Origin: Candidatus Saccharimonadota bacterium
GTDB lineage: Bacteria; Patescibacteriota; Saccharimonadia; Saccharimonadales; JAICHO01
Direction of reading: 5' to 3'
DNA: 32,820 nucleotides
NCBI GenBank assembly: GCA_025924835.1
Contig: JAICHO010000008.1
Span: forward strand, 1-32,820
The position numbers and the translations under genes were made by a program. Positions 11,501 to 19,963 of the stretch are shown here, in pieces. Within the stretch, counting starts at the first letter, position 1; every line of letters starts with the position of its first letter. The notes beneath the pieces were generated by a model. The model saw only the letters and a program-made list of their open reading frames with translations, was not told where the DNA came from and ran no database searches.

Positions 11501-11577
11501 TGGTCGGGGATGCGGGATTTGAACCCACGACCTCCGCGTCCCGAACGCGGCGCGCTACCAAGCTGCGCTAATCCCCG
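11501..11577 (-). tRNA. tRNA-Pro(CGG)
   Basis: On the minus strand: acceptor CGGGGAT/ATCCCCG, anticodon stem CCGCG/CGCGG, loop TTCGGGA with CGG at 34-36, T loop TTCAAAT, discriminator A and encoded CCA. It converges on the Pro(UGG) gene. A TAAAAT-like box at 11582-11587 is very close to the 5' end. The structured element at 11600-11678 lies about 23 nt upstream. Confidence 0.95.
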
Positions 11578-11599: not shown

Positions 11600-11678
11600 G
11601 GGAAAAGAGCAGCCCGCCAAAATGTATTCCATTTTGTCGGCGCGATGAGAAAAACCGTAGGTTTGTCTCATGTTTCTC
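11600..11678. ncRNA. Two-hairpin repeated element, copy A
   Basis: Starts GGGAAAAGAGCAGCC. Hairpin 1: CCG-C-CAAAATG, loop TATTC, CATTTTG-T-CGG (11614-11640). A two-base spacer and CGATGAGAAAA follow. Hairpin 2: ATGAGA-A-AAACC, loop GTA, GGTTT-G-TCTCAT (11645-11671). It shares order, spacing and conserved single strands with copy B at 18374-18443, with compensatory pair changes. It sits between tRNA-Pro(CGG) and the lipid-kinase promoter. Orientation and function are unknown. Confidence 0.5.
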
Positions 11679-11685
11679 TAAGCGG

Positions 11686-11715
11686 ATGACATTGTAGCAG
11701 AAAATCAGATACAAT
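11686..11715 (+). promoter_or_regulatory. Promoter of the lipid-kinase gene, leaderless
   Basis: ATGACA (11686-11691), 18-nt spacer, TACAAT (11710-11715). The ATG at 11722 begins six bases later, at the expected +1, and no ribosome-binding site is present. Confidence 0.6.
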
Positions 11716-11721
11716 ACTCGC

Positions 11722-12360
11722 ATGGTCAACGGCTTGCTCATGAGTAGTAGTATTGGGGGTTTATTGGTTATAGTGGCCGAAGCGCTACGTATTAAAAAGG
11801 TATTAAGGAATGAGACGTCCCGTAAGCTAATACATATAGCCCACGGCTTAGTTGTTGCCAGCTGGCCCTTTTTTACAAATTATTCATTTATCATTACGGC
11901 TGAGATACTGTTTTTTGTTGTAGTATTGCTTGCGCGTACGTTTAGAATAATGCAGCCGCTCAGATCAGTTAACAGGCGTTCCTGGGGTGAGCTTTTCTTC
12001 CCGCTGGGCGTCATTGCCTTGGCTTTGCAGCGTCCGTCGCCCGGGATATTTTTAGTTGCGATGCTGCATTTGGCACTAGCTGACGCAGTAGCTACATTGG
12101 TAGGGCAACGGGCTCAAAAAGGCAGGTATTATATACTTGGCTACCAAAAGTCCATAGCGGGGAGCGTGGCATTCTATGTGGCGTCGTTAGGGATCATGAT
12201 CGGAGCAATAACACATCTCGCGGTCTATCCTACGCGCAGCATGCTCTTTGCCGTGGCCGTTATACCCCTCGCCGCTATGCTGACAGAGAACTTTTCGCCG
12301 TATGGCAGTGATAATTTCAGCGTGCCGTTAGTGGTGATCTGGCTGTTGCAATTAGTATAA
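11722..12360 (+). CDS. Dolichol/diacylglycerol-kinase-like membrane protein
   Basis: A 212-aa polytopic protein of the SEC59/VTE5-type CTP-dependent lipid kinase and phosphatidate cytidylyltransferase-like group. Motifs in order: SRKLIHIAHG near residue 37, ADAVATLVGQRAQKG (about 115-130), GYQKSIAGS (about 138-146) and TENFSPYGSDNFSVPL near the C-terminus. The last corresponds to the conserved E...DN..VP signature. It probably phosphorylates a polyprenol or another lipid alcohol in the membrane. The PAP2 phosphatase encoded 2 kb away could do the reverse step. It converges on the P-type ATPase gene with five bases between stops. Confidence 0.75.
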   Translation: MVNGLLMSSSIGGLLVIVAEALRIKKVLRNETSRKLIHIAHGLVVASWPFFTNYSFIITAEILFFVVVLLARTFRIMQPLRSVNRRSWGELFFPLGVIALALQRPSPGIFLVAMLHLALADAVATLVGQRAQKGRYYILGYQKSIAGSVAFYVASLGIMIGAITHLAVYPTRSMLFAVAVIPLAAMLTENFSPYGSDNFSVPLVVIWLLQLV

Positions 12361-12365
12361 GACAC

Positions 12366-14207
12366 TTATGGTATTTTGAAGCTGCCATGAGCTCTGAGCG
12401 CATTAAAAATAACCGTAACGTCCACCAGTTCTTGGATAGCCGCACCGTAGATTGGTTTAAAGCGGCCGGTAGCAAATATACCCATCAGCCCGATGCTGAT
12501 GAAGATTCCAATTAAGATACTCTGCTTACCAATATAAAATGTCCGTTTAGCAATAGAAACTGCCTGCGCGACTTTACCAATATCGTCCAGGAGTATAACA
12601 ACGTCAGCCGATTCGCTGGCAGCCGTAGAGCCACGGGCACCCAATGCAATGCCGACGTCAGCGGCCGTCAATACGGGGGCGTCATTAACGCCGTCACCGA
12701 CAAATGCCACCGGCTTATGCCCGACGTTTTCAATAGCCTGAATTTTGTCCCCGGGCAGGCAATCCGCAACTACCGTTTCAATACCTACCTGTTTGGCGAT
12801 AGCTTGGGCGGTAGACTTATTATCTCCCGTAACCATTAAGGTGTGTTTTATGCCTAATTGCTTCAATTGGGCCAGCATTGGCTTAGTTTCGTCTCGTAGT
12901 TCGTCTTTAAAGCTGATTGTACCGGCTAAAACACCATCAACCGCGACGTATGTAATTGTTTGCTGGAGTGCTTTGCTGGTAAGTGCTTTGGGTATACTAA
13001 CTGATTCGTCTGTCAAAAAAGCTAACCGACCTACCATAATTGTTTTACCATGGATTCGGCCGGTTAGACCACGGCCAGCAGTTTCTTTGACCTGTTTGAC
13101 TTGCCCAACCTTTAAATTATCCGCAATGGCGGTGTCAATGATGGTCTGAGCTAAAACGTGGCCGGAACTCTGTTCAAGTGCCGCAGCCAACCCTAGAACC
13201 TCCTGCCTGCTGAATTTGTTATAAGTCGTGATTTTGTCTACTACCGGCAAGCCGCGCGTTAGGGTGCCGGTTTTATCAAAGGCCATAGTTTGTATTTCGG
13301 CTAAGCGTTCCAGCGCCGAGCCGGTTTTAACTATTATTCCGTGCTTTGCCGATCGGCTCATTCCGCTGATTAGAGCAATTGGGGCGGCTAAAAGCAGCGG
13401 ACAGGGTGTGGCCACGATAATTACTTCCAGAAATCGTAGAGCGTGCCCGGTAACAATCCAAACAGAACCGGCAATGATAAACGCCGTAATAGTAAAGGGA
13501 ATACTATAGCGGTCTGCCAGGCGCACAAAGGGTGAATGACTTGCGGCTGCAGAGCGCACCAGCTTAATTATTTGTTCATATTGGCTGTCCTGGGCAGTAT
13601 GAGTGGCTTTAATTGTAACCGCTCCTTCAGTATTGACCGCTCCGCTTAGTATCTGATCGCCAACACGTTTATCGACTGGCAGGCTTTCGCCCGTTAGACC
13701 CGATTCGTCAAAGGCCGATGTGCCTTCAATAATTTCGCCATCAACCGGTACGACTTCACCAGGCCAAATAACTACTTTGTCTCCTACCGTAATATCGTGC
13801 ACTTTGACATCAATAGTCTTACCTTTACGCAGGATATGGGCTCTTTTGGGTTTGCGCTCTAGTAAGCTACTTAGCTCCTTTTTAGCCCGTTTTTCGGCAT
13901 AGTCTTCTAGGGCCTTGCCACCAGTTAGCATGAGCACCACGACCATAGCCGCCCAGTATTCATGCAGCAGAACTGAAGCGATGATAGCTGTAGCTGCGAG
14001 GACGTCTATCCCATAACTGCCGCTGCGGACATCGTCGTACATTTCCCATATCAATGGGATTACATTAATGAGGGCACTCACACCTAATACCCAGTGTGCG
14101 GCGGTGGAGTACTTTGCGCCGTATAAGATAAGTCCAGTTATAAATGTTAAGATAACAAATCCCAGTTGTTTGTACTCGCTTAAGAAACGCCTAATACTGC
14201 TTACCAT
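12366..14207 (-). CDS. Heavy-metal P1B-type ATPase
   Basis: A metal-pumping P-type ATPase. Visible motifs: TGES actuator loop (LTGESLPVDK), membrane motif TPCPLLLAAPIA, phosphorylation site DKTGTLT (Asp311 counted from ATG 14207), MVTGDN and VGDGVNDAPVL hinge. Instead of CPC/CPH the transport helix has C-P-L, and the usual SEHPLA is SGHVLA, both traits of a distinct subgroup. Metal specificity is therefore uncertain (Zn, Cd, Co or Cu). There is no N-terminal HMA domain. Start 14207 is chosen over 14228 because AAGGAG (14213-14218) precedes it by five bases, and the predicted transcription start near 14225 excludes the upstream ATG. The protein is about 613 aa. Confidence 0.92.
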   Translation of the reverse strand: MVSSIRRFLSEYKQLGFVILTFITGLILYGAKYSTAAHWVLGVSALINVIPLIWEMYDDVRSGSYGIDVLAATAIIASVLLHEYWAAMVVVLMLTGGKALEDYAEKRAKKELSSLLERKPKRAHILRKGKTIDVKVHDITVGDKVVIWPGEVVPVDGEIIEGTSAFDESGLTGESLPVDKRVGDQILSGAVNTEGAVTIKATHTAQDSQYEQIIKLVRSAAASHSPFVRLADRYSIPFTITAFIIAGSVWIVTGHALRFLEVIIVATPCPLLLAAPIALISGMSRSAKHGIIVKTGSALERLAEIQTMAFDKTGTLTRGLPVVDKITTYNKFSRQEVLGLAAALEQSSGHVLAQTIIDTAIADNLKVGQVKQVKETAGRGLTGRIHGKTIMVGRLAFLTDESVSIPKALTSKALQQTITYVAVDGVLAGTISFKDELRDETKPMLAQLKQLGIKHTLMVTGDNKSTAQAIAKQVGIETVVADCLPGDKIQAIENVGHKPVAFVGDGVNDAPVLTAADVGIALGARGSTAASESADVVILLDDIGKVAQAVSIAKRTFYIGKQSILIGIFISIGLMGIFATGRFKPIYGAAIQELVDVTVIFNALRAHGSFKIP

Positions 14208-14231
14208 AAAATCTCCTTGTTCTTGCATGCT

Positions 14232-14240
14232 AGTATAGCA
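14232..14240 (-). promoter_or_regulatory. Extended -10 promoter of the P-type ATPase
   Basis: TGC-TATACT on the minus strand (14240 down to 14232). The expected start near 14225 lies inside the longer ORF, supporting the ATG at 14207 with its Shine-Dalgarno. Confidence 0.5.
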
Positions 14241-14321
14241 ATAAAGCCTGATGGCTAATAGATGGTGCGTACACCTATCACAGTACCGCCTAATACTGAT
14301 ACCAAACCGCTAACGATTGTG

Positions 14322-14330
14322 TGAGATAAT
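14322..14330 (+). promoter_or_regulatory. Extended -10 promoter of the PAP2 gene, leaderless
   Basis: TGA-GATAAT (14322-14330), with six bases between the -10 and the ATG at 14337. No Shine-Dalgarno is present. Confidence 0.5.
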
Positions 14331-14336
14331 TCCGAT

Positions 14337-14870
14337 ATGGGTTATATTGGCCAATTTGACCAAGTCATATTACACGCGGTAAACAAGCTACCCTCCAGCC
14401 TGCATTTTTTTATGCTTTTTATTACTACTATCGGTTCGCCATTGCCATGCGTAATTATACTGCTCATAGCCATCTGGCTCGCATTTAGATCTAAAAATAA
14501 ACAAGCATTAGCTGCTGAAATCGTGCTCTTGCTTGCCATGCCTCTTGCTAGCATCGTTAAGGATATAACTAAAAGAGTTCGGCCCGATACTCCATACGTG
14601 CAAAGCATGCTGATTAAAAGCTACAGTTTCCCAAGCGGTCATGCCTACGCGTCGCTGATTGTATTCGGTCTCTTGGCATATTCGGCCTGGTTTACTATGA
14701 AATCCAACTGGAAATGGCCGCTAATTGTGTGCTTACTGCTACTGATAATTTTGGTCGGGCTATCACGTGTTTATTTGGGTGCACACTTCCCAAGCGACGT
14801 CTTGGGCGGCTGGCTTCTGGGCGGCATGGTTTTGTTTTTAACTAGTAAGTTTATCACTACCAATAAGTAA
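14337..14870 (+). CDS. PAP2-family lipid phosphatase
   Basis: A 177-aa polytopic membrane phosphatase. The three PAP2 motifs are complete: KRVRPD (about 79-84), SFPSGHA with the catalytic His (about 97-103), and SRVYLGAHFPSDVLGG (about 142-157). Such proteins dephosphorylate undecaprenyl diphosphate, phosphatidic acid or phosphatidylglycerophosphate at the outer face of the membrane. A role in recycling the wall lipid carrier is plausible given murA and murB nearby, but the substrate cannot be told from sequence. It is divergent from the ATPase gene and convergent with the MFS gene. Confidence 0.92.
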   Translation: MGYIGQFDQVILHAVNKLPSSLHFFMLFITTIGSPLPCVIILLIAIWLAFRSKNKQALAAEIVLLLAMPLASIVKDITKRVRPDTPYVQSMLIKSYSFPSGHAYASLIVFGLLAYSAWFTMKSNWKWPLIVCLLLLIILVGLSRVYLGAHFPSDVLGGWLLGGMVLFLTSKFITTNK

Positions 14871-14887
14871 TTAGCTTAAGACAAAAC

Positions 14888-16552
14888 TTAATGCGCTACG
14901 CTGGTTTTGACGGCCAATGACTCTTCTTTTTCCAGCTTGTGCAGATCAACATTTGGCAGCTGTGCGGCTAACAGAAACGCCAAAGCCGTAAAGCTCGCAG
15001 TAAATAACAGGGACTCCTTATTTGCCTTTACCGTACTGGCGTCCGATATTCTTTTAAGTTCTTTGGTTTCATTCGCCGTGAGTTCTTCTCCCTGCACCGG
15101 GATGCCAAATTCAATATTGGATGCCTGGCTTTTGGCGGCCATGGTCAAGGCCGGGCGATGTTCGTCGGAAATTGCTTTGCTCTTTTGGACGCCACCTACC
15201 AGGCCACTGCCTATTGAAGCGATGAGAATTGACCCGATTATCGCGGTGCCAAATGATGAACCTATCTGCCGCAAGGTGTTATTAACGCCAGACGCTTCGC
15301 CGGATTCGTTAACCGAAACGGCTGACAAAGTTATATTGCTGAGTTGTGAAAAACTCAGTCCGACGCCCATCCCATATACCAGAAGTGGCAGTATAAGCTG
15401 TGCCGGACCAGCTGTGACGCTAAACGCCTGCCGCAATATCAGCAGCGCGAATACGTTTATAAATAACCCTACCTGCACAATATGCTTGGGCCTGAAATGT
15501 TTGGCAAAGTAACCACCAGTGGGCGCCATTATAAACAAGCCGATTGACATAGGCAGTAAGGCATAGCCGGTATGCAATGCGTCTAACCCTCGTACGCCTT
15601 GCAAAAAGATAGGGAGACCAAAAATGATTCCCACTTGGCCGGTAGACATAATTGCTGTCAGCAGCGCGCCGCTGGTAAATTGTTTGTTGGCAAAAATCTT
15701 CATGGATACCAGTGGTGTCTTGCGCTTGGCGACCATACGCTGCTCCCACAAGAAGAATCCAAAAAGCAGCAATATACCTGCCACTATCGCAAACGGCACT
15801 ATAGAAATACTGCCAAGTTTTATGCTATGGCCCGCAAACGAGAATACGCCCTTAGCTTGCCACCACCCATATGCGGCACTTTCAATCAGCCCAAAAACGA
15901 TACCCACCAAACCACTTGCGGATAGCAATACACCCAGCCAGTCGATGGTTGGTTTTTCTTCTTTATCGTGTGATTCCTTAATCAGTATAGAACCTAATAA
16001 GAGCAGGGCAGCTACAAAAACATTTATTCTAAAGCCCCAGCGCCAGCTGTAATGGCTGGTTAAATAACCACCGACCACCGGCCCGATGGCGGAACCTGCT
16101 GCTGCCATGCCCCCCCACACCCCGAGCGCCAGCGCCCGATCTCGTCCTCGATAGTTCGTTACGAGTAATGAGGCGGTCGCCGGCATCATAAGTGCCGCAC
16201 CGACTCCTTCAATTATCGATTCCCCAATTATCAACATCCCGACACCGTGGCTAACAGACGCGATAAACGAACCAGTTGCAAAAATAACAGCCCCGACCAT
16301 AAACATCCGTTTACGACCAAATAAATCGCCGAAGCGGCCGCCGGTAATTGTTAAGGCGGCCAACGTGAGCGCATAAGCTGTTATGACCCATTGCAAGCTT
16401 TGAATATTGGTATGTAGGTCACGTACTATAGTACCCAATGAGACATTCAGAAGTGTGGTGTCTAACACGATAATAATAACGGCCAAACCCATAACTACTA
16501 ATGGTGCCCACTTTTTTAGACCAGAATCTGATTTTTCTGTTATCTTAGACAT
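14888..16552 (-). CDS. MFS drug efflux transporter, DHA2 (EmrB/QacA-like) family
   Basis: A 554-aa transporter with about 14 membrane helices, the DHA2 family arrangement. Motif D1-like LDTTLLNVSLGTIVRDL is in helix 1. QWVITAYALTLAAL and motif A, GGRFGDLFGRKRMF, follow. Helix 5 carries the antiporter motif GGMAAAGSAIGPVVGG. It probably exports cationic or hydrophobic toxic compounds using the proton gradient. AGGAG is found about nine bases before the start. Its first bases overlap the end of the MarR gene by eight nt, so the two form an operon and the MarR protein most likely controls it. Confidence 0.92.
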   Translation of the reverse strand: MSKITEKSDSGLKKWAPLVVMGLAVIIIVLDTTLLNVSLGTIVRDLHTNIQSLQWVITAYALTLAALTITGGRFGDLFGRKRMFMVGAVIFATGSFIASVSHGVGMLIIGESIIEGVGAALMMPATASLLVTNYRGRDRALALGVWGGMAAAGSAIGPVVGGYLTSHYSWRWGFRINVFVAALLLLGSILIKESHDKEEKPTIDWLGVLLSASGLVGIVFGLIESAAYGWWQAKGVFSFAGHSIKLGSISIVPFAIVAGILLLFGFFLWEQRMVAKRKTPLVSMKIFANKQFTSGALLTAIMSTGQVGIIFGLPIFLQGVRGLDALHTGYALLPMSIGLFIMAPTGGYFAKHFRPKHIVQVGLFINVFALLILRQAFSVTAGPAQLILPLLVYGMGVGLSFSQLSNITLSAVSVNESGEASGVNNTLRQIGSSFGTAIIGSILIASIGSGLVGGVQKSKAISDEHRPALTMAAKSQASNIEFGIPVQGEELTANETKELKRISDASTVKANKESLLFTASFTALAFLLAAQLPNVDLHKLEKEESLAVKTSVAH

Positions 16553-16994
16553 GTTTCTTTTCTCCTATTTTTGTGAGTTTGTCGTTAATTTTTCCCGCTG
16601 TACGGACAAAAATTTCTAATTCTTCATCGCTGATGTCGCTACTTATGGTCTCCATGAGTGTCAACCTTTCGCGCTCAAGTTTCTTAATAAGTTCCATACC
16701 TTTACCAGATAGTTTTATCCTAACGGTTCGCCGGTCATTGGGGTCAGGGTTCCTTATTACCAGTCCGGCTTGTACTAATGCCTCAATATGCTGCGTCGCA
16801 GCACCCGAAGTTACATGCAACGCAGCCGCTAGTTGTTTAACGCTAATTGTTTTGTGAATAGCAACACTAATTAAAGCGGCTTTTTGTCCGAAGGGGATAG
16901 TGCTTATAGCGCTAGGCGGCCGTTGCAGCATGACTTTATATATACCCTGGAAGCTCTCAAGCAATTTACGAGATAAGTCTTTGCGATTCGTCAT
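16545..16994 (-). CDS. MarR-family transcriptional regulator
   Basis: A 149-aa winged-helix repressor. The recognition region reads TISVKQLAAALHVTSGAATQHIEALVQAGLVIRNPDPNDRRTVRIKLS in overlapping short motifs: the AAALHVTSGAATQHIEAL helix-turn-helix, then the DPNDRRTVRI wing with its conserved D-x-R-R. Helices at both ends would form the dimer interface. It is first in an operon with the MFS exporter. A 19-bp palindrome sits on its own promoter, which indicates autorepression relieved by a ligand that the pump exports. No convincing Shine-Dalgarno is seen; the leader is about 10 nt. Confidence 0.93.
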   Translation of the reverse strand: MTNRKDLSRKLLESFQGIYKVMLQRPPSAISTIPFGQKAALISVAIHKTISVKQLAAALHVTSGAATQHIEALVQAGLVIRNPDPNDRRTVRIKLSGKGMELIKKLERERLTLMETISSDISDEELEIFVRTAGKINDKLTKIGEKKHV

Positions 16995-17009
16995 AGGTTA
17001 GGTACTTAA

Positions 17010-17039
17010 TATATTAGTTACTAATATAATTATTGTCAA
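17010..17039 (-). promoter_or_regulatory. marR-MFS promoter with overlapping MarR operator
   Basis: Minus strand: TTGACA (17039-17034), 17-nt spacer, TAATAT (17016-17011), close to consensus. The perfect palindrome TATATTAGTTACTAATATA (17010-17028) covers the -10 box and half the spacer, the classic position for a MarR dimer that blocks RNA polymerase. Confidence 0.8.
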
Positions 17040-17070
17040 CCTAGACTATAATGTAAACTAAATCCAGCGT

Positions 17071-17096
17071 AATAAAAAAGACTCCCGTGGGGAGTC
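17071..17096 (-). terminator. Intrinsic terminator of tRNA-His
   Basis: Minus strand stem GACTCCC / GGGAGTC (17096-17090 with 17086-17080), a 3-nt loop and then TTTTTTATT. A textbook hairpin plus U-tract, placed 17 nt after the tRNA. Confidence 0.9.
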
Positions 17097-17112
17097 CGGC
17101 TTATAAATTTCT

Positions 17113-17189
17113 TGGGGCGAACGATGGGGCTCGAACCCACGACATCCAGGACCACAACCTAGCGCTCTACCAACTGAGCTACGTCCGCC
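17113..17189 (-). tRNA. tRNA-His(GUG)
   Basis: Minus strand. Anticodon loop TTGTGGT has GTG at 34-36. The 5' end carries an extra G that pairs with C73, the G-1:C73 identity element of tRNA-His, followed by acceptor GCGGACG/CGTTCGC and T8-A9. CCA is encoded. The family and the -1 residue agree. Confidence 0.95.
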
Positions 17190-17211
17190 ACGAACTTTAA
17201 GAACAGGGGTG

Positions 17212-17217
17212 ATTATA
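17212..17217 (-). promoter_or_regulatory. -10 box of tRNA-His
   Basis: TATAAT on the minus strand followed by CACCCCTGTT, the same 17-base block as at tRNA-Pro(UGG). Start near 17205, leader about 16 nt. Confidence 0.6.
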
Positions 17218-17260
17218 CGTTTTAATCTTAAAAATATCAAACCCGTCTTTTTGATGTGCC

Positions 17261-17470
17261 CTAAAGGCTCTTTGTTTTTTTTGGACCCGGTTTAGAAAAA
17301 TAGAACAGATACGTCAGCTCCAAGATGCCGAAGGTATTTAATATCAGCAGAGCAATATACCAACCCTTTTGTTCGGCCTTGGCCGCGCGCCATAACGCCC
17401 AGCCTTTAAGTGGAGTGATAACTATAGCCATAATTACGGCCAGACGGATTAAGCGCGGATCGGCATACAT
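17261..17470 (-). CDS. DUF5652-like small membrane protein
   Basis: A 69-aa protein with two membrane helices (about 9-25 and 38-58) and a Lys-rich C-terminal tail. The segments GWALWRAAK and LNTFGILELTYLFYFSK match the DUF5652 pattern common in CPR bacteria. The domain resembles the phospholipase D N-terminal membrane segment; function unknown. TACAAT (17477-17482, minus strand) lies six bases before the ATG, so the mRNA is probably leaderless. Confidence 0.65.
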   Translation of the reverse strand: MYADPRLIRLAVIMAIVITPLKGWALWRAAKAEQKGWYIALLILNTFGILELTYLFYFSKPGPKKTKSL

Positions 17471-17476
17471 GGTTTT

Positions 17477-17482
17477 ATTGTA
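17477..17482 (-). promoter_or_regulatory. -10 box of the DUF5652 gene, leaderless
   Basis: TACAAT on the minus strand ends six bases before the ATG at 17470. No clear -35 and no Shine-Dalgarno. Confidence 0.45.
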
Positions 17483-17520
17483 GCTTAGTTTAAGATAATC
17501 AAAATAATTTGTGCTCCTGC

Positions 17521-18066
17521 TCAGGTTTTCTGACGCCGTAGTTTGTCGGCCAGGAGCTGAAGCGCCAGATAGCGGTGGCTTAGTTGGTTTTTTTCTTTTG
17601 TTGGCATCTCCGCCATAGTACGCGTATGGCCATCTGGCACGATAACCTTATCAAACCCCCAGCCAATTTTGCCACGTGGTGCTACTACCGTTCCATGCAG
17701 CACGCCCTTGACGATCTCTTGTTTTCCTCCGTCATAGTATCCCATGCAACAGATGATAGTGGCCCGATCGCCTGCTGATTTTGATAATTTAAACAGCGCG
17801 TCTTCACCTAATTTTTGTTCAAAGAATTTTATGAACGGGCCGGGCAAGCCATTGAGTGACTCCAGCTCGGCGGAAACATCATCTACCAGTACGGGACCGC
17901 CAACTCGCGCATAAGCCTCCTGCAACTTATGAGCAACTATTTCTCCTATGTCTAAGGTTTGAATTTCCGCAATATCCAATGCGAGATTCTTAATAGGGAA
18001 GGGCAAGATAGCTTGTGCTTCAGCCAGCTTGTGGGGATTAGCGGTTACAAACGTGATAGCGGTCAT
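17521..18066 (-). CDS. rdgB: RdgB/HAM1-family non-canonical purine NTP pyrophosphatase
   Basis: A house-cleaning enzyme that hydrolyses ITP, XTP and their deoxy forms to monophosphates, keeping them out of DNA and RNA. Family motifs in the 181 aa: FVTANPHKLAEAQ at the N-terminus (phosphate-binding T-x-N-x-x-K), LVDDVSAELESLNGLPGPFIKFF, GWGFDKVIVPDG, RTMAEM, and KNQLSHRYLAL with the SHR base-recognition motif. The usual E-D-[ST]-G is V-D-D-V-S, closer to archaeal and eukaryotic versions. It lies 39 bp downstream of the tRNA-Arg(UCU) gene on the same strand and may be read from the tRNA promoter. Confidence 0.88.
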   Translation of the reverse strand: MTAITFVTANPHKLAEAQAILPFPIKNLALDIAEIQTLDIGEIVAHKLQEAYARVGGPVLVDDVSAELESLNGLPGPFIKFFEQKLGEDALFKLSKSAGDRATIICCMGYYDGGKQEIVKGVLHGTVVAPRGKIGWGFDKVIVPDGHTRTMAEMPTKEKNQLSHRYLALQLLADKLRRQKT

Positions 18067-18104
18067 TAATTAAGATACCCTCTGATAGTACTAGTATAAG
18101 TTTG

Positions 18105-18181
18105 TGGTGCGCCTGGTAGGATTCGAACCTACGGCCTTAGGCTTAGAAGTCCTCTGCTCTATCCAGCTGAGCTACAGGCGC
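18105..18181 (-). tRNA. tRNA-Arg(UCU) with mismatched anticodon stem
   Basis: Minus strand: acceptor GCGCCTG/CAGGCGC, D stem GCTC/GAGC, loop CTTCTAA with TCT at 34-36, T arm GTAGG-TTCGAAT-CCTAC, discriminator A and encoded CCA. The anticodon stem reads GAGGA against GCCTA: the outer pair (27-43, G with A) and inner pair (31-39, A with G) do not match, leaving three canonical pairs. It lies 15 nt after tRNA-Gly and is co-transcribed with it. Confidence 0.85.
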
Positions 18182-18196
18182 ACATACACGTACACG

Positions 18197-18271
18197 TGGT
18201 GCGGGATGGGGTAGTCGAAACCCCATCTGAAGTTTGGAAAACTTCCATATTAACCGTTATACGAATCCCGC
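18197..18271 (-). tRNA. tRNA-Gly(UCC)
   Basis: Minus strand: acceptor GCGGGAT/ATCCCGC, anticodon stem GAAGT/ACTTC, loop TTTCCAA with TCC at 34-36, T arm GGGGT-TTCGACT-ACCCC, discriminator A and encoded CCA. First gene of a tRNA-Gly/tRNA-Arg(UCU) pair. Confidence 0.95.
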
Positions 18272-18286
18272 AGAATAACAGAGGCC

Positions 18287-18295
18287 ATTATAGCA
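18287..18295 (-). promoter_or_regulatory. Extended -10 promoter of the tRNA-Gly/tRNA-Arg pair
   Basis: TGC-TATAAT on the minus strand (18295 down to 18287), followed by GGCCTCTGTT. Start near 18280, about 8 nt before tRNA-Gly. Confidence 0.65.
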
Positions 18296-18331
18296 TTCTT
18301 TAGTGTTCTTGCAGCTTAGACACTAGTAACT

Positions 18332-18364
18332 ACAAAAATACCAGATTTAATTCGGCATTTTTGT
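18332..18364 (-). terminator. Hairpin between murA and the tRNA-Gly promoter
   Basis: ACAAAAATACC (18332-18342) pairs with GGCATTTTTGT (18354-18364) apart from one mismatch, with an 11-nt loop. Read on the minus strand it lies after murA and the structured element and before the tRNA promoter, so it is a likely terminator. It could also act on the other strand. Confidence 0.5.
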
Positions 18365-18373
18365 TTCCGTTTT

Positions 18374-18443
18374 GGGATAAGAGCAGCCAGAGAAAATGTT
18401 CCATTTTCCCTGAACGATGAGAAAAGCAGTCGTCTTTTCTCGT
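18374..18443. ncRNA. Two-hairpin repeated element, copy B
   Basis: Starts GGGATAAGAGCAGCC. Hairpin 1: CAG-A-GAAAATG, loop TTC, CATTTTC-C-CTG (18388-18412). A two-base spacer and CGATGAGAAAA follow. Hairpin 2: ATGAGAAAAG, a 7-nt loop, CTTTTCTCGT (18417-18443). The element touches the murA stop codon. Compared with copy A, pairs in hairpin 1 change on both sides, which preserves the fold. Orientation and function are unknown. Confidence 0.5.
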
Positions 18444-19963
18444 TATAGTTCATGCATAATAGTGATATGGGCGCCCAAACTATTAAGGCGCTCGGCTAGA
18501 TCCTCATAACCGCGGTTTATAGAATAGACATTTCTAAGGATGGATAACCCCGGCGCTGCCAGCATACCAATCAGCAGCAGCACGGCAGGTCTAAGAGCTG
18601 GCGGGCAAACAATATCCGCGGCGCTAAATTTGGTAGGGCCATCAATGTAAGCCCGGTGCGGATCTGCCAAAGTAACATTGGCATTTAGTTTGCGCAATTC
18701 TGTATAATACAGCGCCCGCTCTTCATATACCCAGTCATGGATAAGGGTACGTCCCTTGGCCACGGCAGCGATTGGAACAAAGTAAGGCAGGTTATCTATA
18801 TTTAGGCCGGGATAAGGTCGGGCATATATTTTTTCTTCTAATGCCACCAGGGTGCCATTATGTTTATAGATAGTTATATCCGCCAGATTTGTATAACCGT
18901 TTTCGGCTTTATAGTAAGGCGTTACGCTAAAGTTTAGCCGCATTTTCTTAAGCTTTAGCAGTTCAAGTTCCAAAAACTCAATTGGCGCTCGCTGTACGGT
19001 AATTTCCGAATTTGTAGTGACAGCAGCAGCGATAAAGGTCATGGCTTCAATCGGGTCTTCGCTGGGATAATACGTAACGTTTTTCTTGATGTCTTTTACG
19101 CCCTTGATTTTCAAAGTACTGGTGCCGATACCCTCCACCCGCACGCCCAGCTTTTTCAAAAAATAGCATAGGTCCTGAACCATGTAATTCGCACTGGCCA
19201 TTTTGATAACAATTTCTTCTTCAAACTTAGCGGCAGCCATCAGAACATTTTCCGTAGTAGTATCGCCGGATTCATACAATACGATTTGTGGCACGGAGTG
19301 TTTTTTGACGCTGACATGATAGTGCCCGCTTTTGGCTACAATATTGACGCCAAGCTCTTCCAGCGCAAAAAGGTGCGGCTGAACCGTGCGGTTGCCCAGC
19401 TTACAGCCTCCGGCGTATGGGATACGGAATTCATTGAACAGGTGCATGAGCGGGCCAAGCAACATCAAGACGCTGCGTGTTTTACGCGCCGCGCCGCTAT
19501 CCATGCTATCCATTTTTAGAACTGCTGGCGGCTTGATTTCCAGATCATTACCAGGCAGCCATTTAACCTGTACGCCAATACTGGTTAACACTTCAATCAG
19601 GCGGTTAACTTCCTCTATGCGGGGCATGCGCTTTAATTTGGTGGTGCCTTTATTGAGCAAGGAGGCCATCAATAAACATACGGCTGCGTTCTTAGACGTT
19701 TTAGTAGCCACGCTTCCGTGGAGTTCGTAACCGCCCTCTACCCGCAGATTAACGGCGCCACCACTAATACTGATAAGCGGTTTGTTAAGCACGTCACTAA
19801 TCCGTCCCAAAGTTTCCAGGCTTAGGTTTTGTTTGCCATGTTCAATTCTGTTTACGGCGCTTTGGCTGGTGCCTAGTTTACGGGCAAAAGAGGCTTGTGT
19901 AAGATTTCTCTCTTGTCGTATCTGGTAAATTAATTGTCCAATTTTCTCATTTGTTGTCTGCAT
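18443..19963 (-). CDS. murA: MurA (UDP-GlcNAc enolpyruvyl transferase) fused to an XRE-type HTH
   Basis: MurA catalyses the first committed step of peptidoglycan synthesis, moving enolpyruvate from PEP to UDP-GlcNAc. The 506-aa protein is longer than the usual ~420 because residues about 7-65 form an XRE/Cro helix-turn-helix (LTQASFARKLGTSQSAVNRIEHG). The MurA part starts near residue 70. It keeps SKNAA (substrate Lys/Asn), the catalytic Cys in AGGCKLGNR (Cys187, equivalent to Cys115 in E. coli) and a C-terminal NINRGYEDL-like motif (SINRGYEDLAERL). Both halves are in one uninterrupted frame. The HTH could make this a DNA-binding enzyme or sensor, or be a relic. It is transcribed divergently from glyA. 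Confidence 0.9.
   Translation of the reverse strand: MQTTNEKIGQLIYQIRQERNLTQASFARKLGTSQSAVNRIEHGKQNLSLETLGRISDVLNKPLISISGGAVNLRVEGGYELHGSVATKTSKNAAVCLLMASLLNKGTTKLKRMPRIEEVNRLIEVLTSIGVQVKWLPGNDLEIKPPAVLKMDSMDSGAARKTRSVLMLLGPLMHLFNEFRIPYAGGCKLGNRTVQPHLFALEELGVNIVAKSGHYHVSVKKHSVPQIVLYESGDTTTENVLMAAAKFEEEIVIKMASANYMVQDLCYFLKKLGVRVEGIGTSTLKIKGVKDIKKNVTYYPSEDPIEAMTFIAAAVTTNSEITVQRAPIEFLELELLKLKKMRLNFSVTPYYKAENGYTNLADITIYKHNGTLVALEEKIYARPYPGLNIDNLPYFVPIAAVAKGRTLIHDWVYEERALYYTELRKLNANVTLADPHRAYIDGPTKFSAADIVCPPALRPAVLLLIGMLAAPGLSILRNVYSINRGYEDLAERLNSLGAHITIMHEL

Follow-up and report, generated by a model that had tools for sequence, protein, structure and literature searches.

The DNA analyzed here, a stretch of 32,820 nucleotides from contig JAICHO010000008.1 of a Candidatus Saccharimonadota bacterium (assembly GCA_025924835.1; hereafter the window), contains two look-alike segments, each consisting of a shared head, a first hairpin, a short linker and a second hairpin (Table 1). 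It thereby raises the question of what kind of entity these segments are. The initial annotation favored an RNA structure over a DNA repeat on the basis of base changes on both sides of pairs. Both segments are indeed present, and the differences noted between their first hairpins hold (outer helix CCG/CGG versus CAG/CTG, a 1x1 mismatch in both, and C-G versus G-C as first pair of the 7-bp helix). Our analysis nevertheless does not support the preference for RNA: the two segments quite probably belong to a family of mobile, non-autonomous DNA elements whose copies measure ~72-78 bp (insertions total about 90-110 bp) and are built from a linear purine head and two hairpins, similar to REP or double-hairpin elements.

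Table 1. Parts and neighbors of the two copies in the window.
Feature	Position	Strand	Remarks
Copy 1, covariance-model match	11600..11672		
tRNA-Pro(CGG)	11501..11577	-	22 nt from copy 1 head; minority orientation of the family
Copy 1 linear head GGGAAAAGAG	11600..11609	+	First 7 positions are the mirror image of the hairpin 2 5' arm
Copy 1 hairpin 1	11612..11643	+	Closing GC/GC pair, CCG/CGG helix, 1x1 C.T mismatch, 7-bp CAAAATG/CATTTTG helix; read as 11614..11640 in the comparison with copy 2
Copy 1 hairpin 2 ATGAGAAAAACC-GTA-GGTTTGTCTCAT	11645..11671	+	A.G mismatch, i.e., the common mismatch type
A/T-rich inverted repeat ACAAAAATACC...GGCATTTTTGT	18332..18364	.	Between copy 2 and tRNA-Gly
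Copy 2, covariance-model match	18374..18444		
Copy 2 linear head GGGATAAGAG	18374..18383	+	
Copy 2 hairpin 1	18388..18412	+	CAG/CTG helix, A.C mismatch, GAAAATG/CATTTTC helix
Copy 2 hairpin 2	18417..18443	+	Fully paired type; final base is the final base of the murA stop codon
murA-like gene	18443..19963	-	N-terminal Cro/C1-type HTH domain; 3' end carries copy 2

The compensatory base changes on which the RNA reading was founded are genuine. They occur in independent genomes, and when 88 distinct copies, most of them belonging to other species, are aligned, they lie far above the values of shuffled controls: paired cells reach 94.3% (79.0% in shuffles), 17 of the 24 pairs have changed on both sides (8.9 in shuffles), and double-change cells number 283 (72 in shuffles). 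The covariation signal was lost when partner columns were slid by one to three positions. Hairpin 1 keeps its pairing only: its sequence is free, two-sided changes affect four of the five outer pairs and every one of the seven inner pairs, and some copies carry an entirely different stretch in its place. In hairpin 2 the foot ATGAGA/TCTCAT is retained, and copies fall into two types according to whether the fifth position counted from GAG holds an A.G mismatch or the helix is fully paired; conserved as well are the unpaired motifs GAGCAGC and GATGAGA. Such covariation does not by itself say RNA, and is no proof of RNA function, because either strand of a palindrome can fold and both strands of the element can form both hairpins. 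An asymmetry in wobble pairs (78 G.T versus 38 A.C) favors folding of the plus strand of the window, a figure biased by the fact that the search model allows G-U.

Further copies were found in this genome and in its relatives. A covariance model built from seven copies of the own genome, the two in the window and five sister copies, detected 24 copies at E<1e-6, plus two with weaker scores, in this 1.0-Mb genome, while the head pattern, allowing for at most two mismatches, gave 18 matches genome-wide and none in the reversed control. Matches at E<1e-5 occur in 28 genomes other than the own one, out of 60 from the same order, with up to 24 per genome at a looser E-value, and at the level of the class, copies passing strict filters are present in 69 of 295 genomes, patchily so inside genera. 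At least 116 stretches, the complete chromosome CP025011 among them, were recovered from GTDB genomes by a pattern scan; of those listed, nearly all carry Saccharibacteria or Saccharimonadia in their titles. Outside Saccharibacteria, single pattern matches were found in one Holophagae and one Nomurabacteria bin, which may represent misbinned contigs. Hence, the repeat is almost confined to Saccharibacteria. It matches no RNA family of Rfam, and the initial annotation had recognized none: comparison with Rfam at gathering and relaxed thresholds produced no family, the best E-value being 3.9. A phage or plasmid vehicle was also considered and rejected, given that IMG/VR yielded two pattern matches, one without a match to the model and one with a weak match.

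That copies insert and thereby duplicate 12-61 bp of their target is evident from their flanks. Direct repeats above the 99th percentile of mismatched flanks border 42 of the 206 copies, about two being expected, although at least four of the 42 are artefacts from look-alike neighboring tRNA genes and are not to be counted. These repeats are 12-61 bp long (median 33), and the freshest are 97-100% identical over 36-60 bp. Most of them stop 1-12 bp before hairpin 2 and begin 0-33 bp past the head; the ends of the copies are not sharp and vary by 0-12 nt on one side and by 0-33 nt on the other. Empty sites are found in related genomes. At locus L118 a 54-bp stretch occurs twice with 99 bp between, and genome G043 of the same genus has it once; at the start of typA the figures are 47 bp and 108 bp, the 47 bp standing twice in L095 and singly in G011. 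One genome carries five intergenic copies within its ribosomal-protein operon, and at two of these five sites sister genomes have single 18-bp and 12-19-bp repeats. Both genes survive such an insertion because the stop codon, the ribosome-binding site and the start codon all lie within the duplicated stretch. Most differences between the duplicated gene starts at lepA and typA are synonymous, and they include switches between codons two changes apart. Neutral decay of the dead copy of a target duplication should not produce this pattern, which counts against the insertion reading; one copy might here have been replaced by recombination with foreign DNA. About 80% of the copies lack a duplication, so many of these are old or of other origin.

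Most insertions are found at the edges of genes, toward which the hairpin 2 end points. In 42 copies (~20% of the 206) 2-13 nt lie between this end and the 5' terminus of a tRNA gene, with many kinds of tRNA being involved. Within 30 nt of tRNA 5' ends, one arrangement accounts for 43 copies and the other three for a combined 12; of the control intergenic positions, only 0.36% are so near to a tRNA 5' end. In many other copies, a start codon follows the hairpin 2 end at about 15-26 nt. The connection to tRNA genes that had been drawn from the position of the two window copies is consequently strong for the family as a whole, but the tRNA neighbors of these two copies represent an atypical arrangement. 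Copy 1 is of the mobile type with its head, in the rarer arrangement, toward tRNA-Pro. Copy 2 is separated by 102 nt from tRNA-Gly and is of the 3'-end type; it touches the stop codon of the murA-like gene, as had been noted, and belongs to the 3' end of this gene rather than to tRNA-Gly. The A/T-rich inverted repeat between copy 2 and tRNA-Gly looks, judged by its letters, like a terminator, possibly a bidirectional one; a simple terminator scan does not list it, its loop being larger than the limit of the scan.

Copies at the 3' ends of genes bring into focus the alternative that the family is a functional cis-acting RNA, part of tRNA 5' leaders, operon spacers or mRNA 3' ends, which serves processing, stability or translation termination and is mainly inherited by vertical descent. 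The strict spacing to tRNA 5' ends speaks for it, and so does the enrichment of the fully paired type at -2 to 10 nt past sense stop codons (14 of 43 copies; mismatch type, 11 of 148; P=9e-5). Terminators are present within 90 nt in 10 of 26 copies, as against 19 of the 180 others. In seven genomes from several families, the element lies 3-5 nt past the groEL stop codon (one of these is a remnant), and a terminator follows in most of them. The copies at the 3' ends of groEL and murA look conserved in place rather than mobile, and some gene 3'-end copies are probably retained as mRNA 3'-end structures. As an account of the whole family, we nevertheless regard a cis-acting RNA as rather unlikely: the element occurs in both orientations, with empty sites and target duplications, it is absent from about three-quarters of the class genomes sampled and from most groEL loci, and it has no conserved partner gene.

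Of the remaining explanations, that of a reverse-transcribed, SINE-like element moved by target-primed reverse transcription would fit both the folded conserved RNA and the 12-61 bp duplications, as this process typically leaves target duplications that are long and variable in length. The eukaryotic retrotransposons Ty and TRE insert upstream of tRNA genes, and non-LTR kinds among such elements do so with variable duplications. The Saccharibacteria repeat likewise targets the 5' side of tRNA genes; unlike Ty and TRE, it is bacterial, only ~75 bp long, placed at a distance of 2-13 nt and without a link to a reverse transcriptase. Reverse-transcriptase domains were detected in 10 of 61 genomes, with none in the own genome or in five copy-rich genomes (G000, G005, G009, G032, and G037), and the copies show neither an A-tail nor a pattern of 5' truncation. 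We therefore consider reverse transcription distinctly improbable.

Mobilization as a REP-like repeat through a REP-associated tyrosine (Y1/HUH) transposase, or RAYT, is suggested by palindromic, extragenic and adjoining hairpins like those of REPs, and by RAYT-sized Y1 genes being present in 12 of 22 copy-bearing genomes checked versus 2-3 of 14 copy-free ones. A Y1 transposase is, on the other hand, absent from the own genome and from the other ten of the 22, and no RAYT was found in five genomes with fresh insertions (G015, G028, G030, G043, and G293); several genomes with fresh insertions lack RAYT and reverse transcriptase alike. Unrelated palindromes of their own flank the RAYT genes that we examined, and the regions searched around these genes contain no element except for one, about 4 kb off. 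Movement of IS200/IS605 and REP elements is not known to leave a target duplication, which is at odds with the duplications described above. Neither a GTAG nor a CGTC tag stands at the hairpin foot in the copies listed, and mobilization by a RAYT is consequently very doubtful. Across the distributions of Y1/RAYT and reverse-transcriptase genes, no mobilizing gene was found; an inverted repeat of the two ends of the element was not detected beyond a resemblance in purine tracts, and the ends vary. That the copies are ordinary intrinsic terminators or attenuators that happen to resemble one another, as hairpins at gene ends and a U-rich stretch after hairpin 1 on the opposite strand might suggest, can hardly be entertained in view of scans that found no terminator-like site at the elements, the conserved unpaired GAGCAGC and GATGAGA, the sites before tRNAs and within operons, and the mobility of the family.

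Returning to the mobile DNA element, its head and its second hairpin are coupled. The head variants GGGAGGAGAG, GGGGAGAG and GGAAGGAG are partnered by GAGAGGAGG, GAGAGGGG and GAGGGAACC, respectively, in hairpin 2, and a run of n adenines in the head corresponds to n+1 adenines in hairpin 2 (n = 2 to 5). When heads were shuffled among copies of one and the same genome, neither the match of the A-runs (z 8.3) nor the mirror match (z 7.1 in register, 7.8 when shifted by one) was ever reached. A simple direct repeat in place of the mirror gave a weaker coupling (z at most 5.7). Above a purine-only hairpin 2, G in the head mostly stands over G:C, and A:T is mostly covered by A or T, as the rule for purine-motif triple helices has it; common classes break this rule at the stem top, the commonest ending in GGG over C:G pairs. 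These patterns are suggestive, and do not prove, that on the plus strand of the window the linear head (GGGAWAAGAG) may form a third strand on hairpin 2 in a purine-motif triple helix. Subfamilies inherit head and hairpin 2 together, and part of the coupling could thus be explained by co-descent.

These observations lend themselves to a model for the movement of the element. A single strand, more likely the one that reads GGGAWAAGAG..., would fold into the two hairpins, and its head would lie on hairpin 2 as a reverse-Hoogsteen third strand. A nuclease, a transposase or a repair pathway supplied in trans would then recognize the folded strand, which would be joined at staggered nicks 12-60 nt apart; fill-in of these nicks would leave the target duplications. 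We put forward only tentatively that this constitutes a new way of moving, in which a folded strand with two hairpins and a Hoogsteen third strand enters the DNA next to tRNA 5' ends and gene edges, through nicks that are widely staggered, across a lineage with very small genomes.

Palindromes of the REP/BIME kind and their RAYT-mobilized relatives, including the GTAG and CGTC families (PMC3733652), share with the Saccharibacteria repeat the short extragenic hairpins, the tens of copies, the location at gene 3' ends and in operons, and the non-autonomous character. Unlike them, the Saccharibacteria repeat lacks the GTAG/CGTC tag, has two different hairpins with the head coupled to hairpin 2, generates 12-61 bp target duplications and prefers tRNA 5' ends, and no RAYT is present in the own genome or beside the copies. 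The double-hairpin elements of Allomyces and the repetitive hairpin-forming elements of sponge mitochondria are likewise mobile, intergenic, composed of two adjoining hairpins and without an assigned mobilizer; those of Allomyces are reported to lack flanking duplications (PMC2800124). Presence/absence polymorphism between related genomes, by which DHE/RHE are recognized, was found for the Saccharibacteria repeat as well, yet this repeat resides in bacterial chromosomes and has long duplications, conserved unpaired motifs and a coupled head. Bacterial MITEs (PMC10969869) are similarly small, non-autonomous, intergenic and flanked by target duplications; the repeat differs from them in having no clear terminal inverted repeats and a duplication length that is not constant (12-61 bp). 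The closest kinds are REP and the mitochondrial double-hairpin elements, which the repeat resembles as a small palindromic mobile repeat while departing from them in what defines them, namely the tag, the required transposase and the freedom from duplications.

The duplication signature is shown by none of the bacterial element families with which we compared the repeat, and the repeat would provide a lead toward a recombination enzyme not yet described. The coupling of head and hairpin 2 is a possible case of a triplex-like fold that is maintained by selection. For the Saccharibacteria themselves, the repeat has reached up to 24 copies per genome despite the very small size of their genomes, and has entered even ribosomal-protein operons and tRNA leaders; its recent-insertion sites are specific and testable, and the repeat would provide markers of recent genome change in these bacteria.

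In four genomes, some copies of the element carry a further hairpin module of the form CCTTACCCC..(arm)..GGGGACCCC, inserted either within hairpin 2 or adjoining it; the module has the look of another small repeat family, distinct from the element. Ahead of hairpin 2, in the sense-left flank, 30 of the 206 element copies, drawn from several genomes, possess a mini-hairpin (e.g., GGCGGCTTCGCC) that may be part of a longer form of the element.

One copy in the genome of the window (L037, C37:1377) is located within a stretch whose sequence resembles a cobalamin riboswitch. At three other copies, a truncated second copy of a gene start lies upstream of the element, and nearly all differences between these duplicates and the real gene starts are synonymous.

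Features of the window and of element copies (L-numbers)
Feature	Location	Strand	Detail
MurA-like protein gene	window 18443-19963	-	helix-turn-helix domain of the Cro/C1 type at the N-terminus (Pfam HTH_3, E 1.7e-16)
Hairpin module	L039 (own genome C7:7733)
Hairpin module	L083
Hairpin module	L144
Hairpin module	next to L085
Truncated gene-start duplicate	L087		lepA start
Truncated gene-start duplicate	L095		typA start
Truncated gene-start duplicate	L120		truB start

Among the Saccharibacterial RAYT-like genes L406-L425 (about 205-250 aa), most have their own short palindrome at their borders, e.g., CAAGGTCTGACCTTG or GTGAAAGGATAAACCTTTCAC, and this palindrome varies between genes.

Two pattern hits fall into bins named outside Saccharibacteria: one (L208, Holophagae) without a match to the covariance model, the other (L245, Nomurabacteria) with a strong one. 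They represent either misbinned contigs or a transfer beyond Saccharibacteria.
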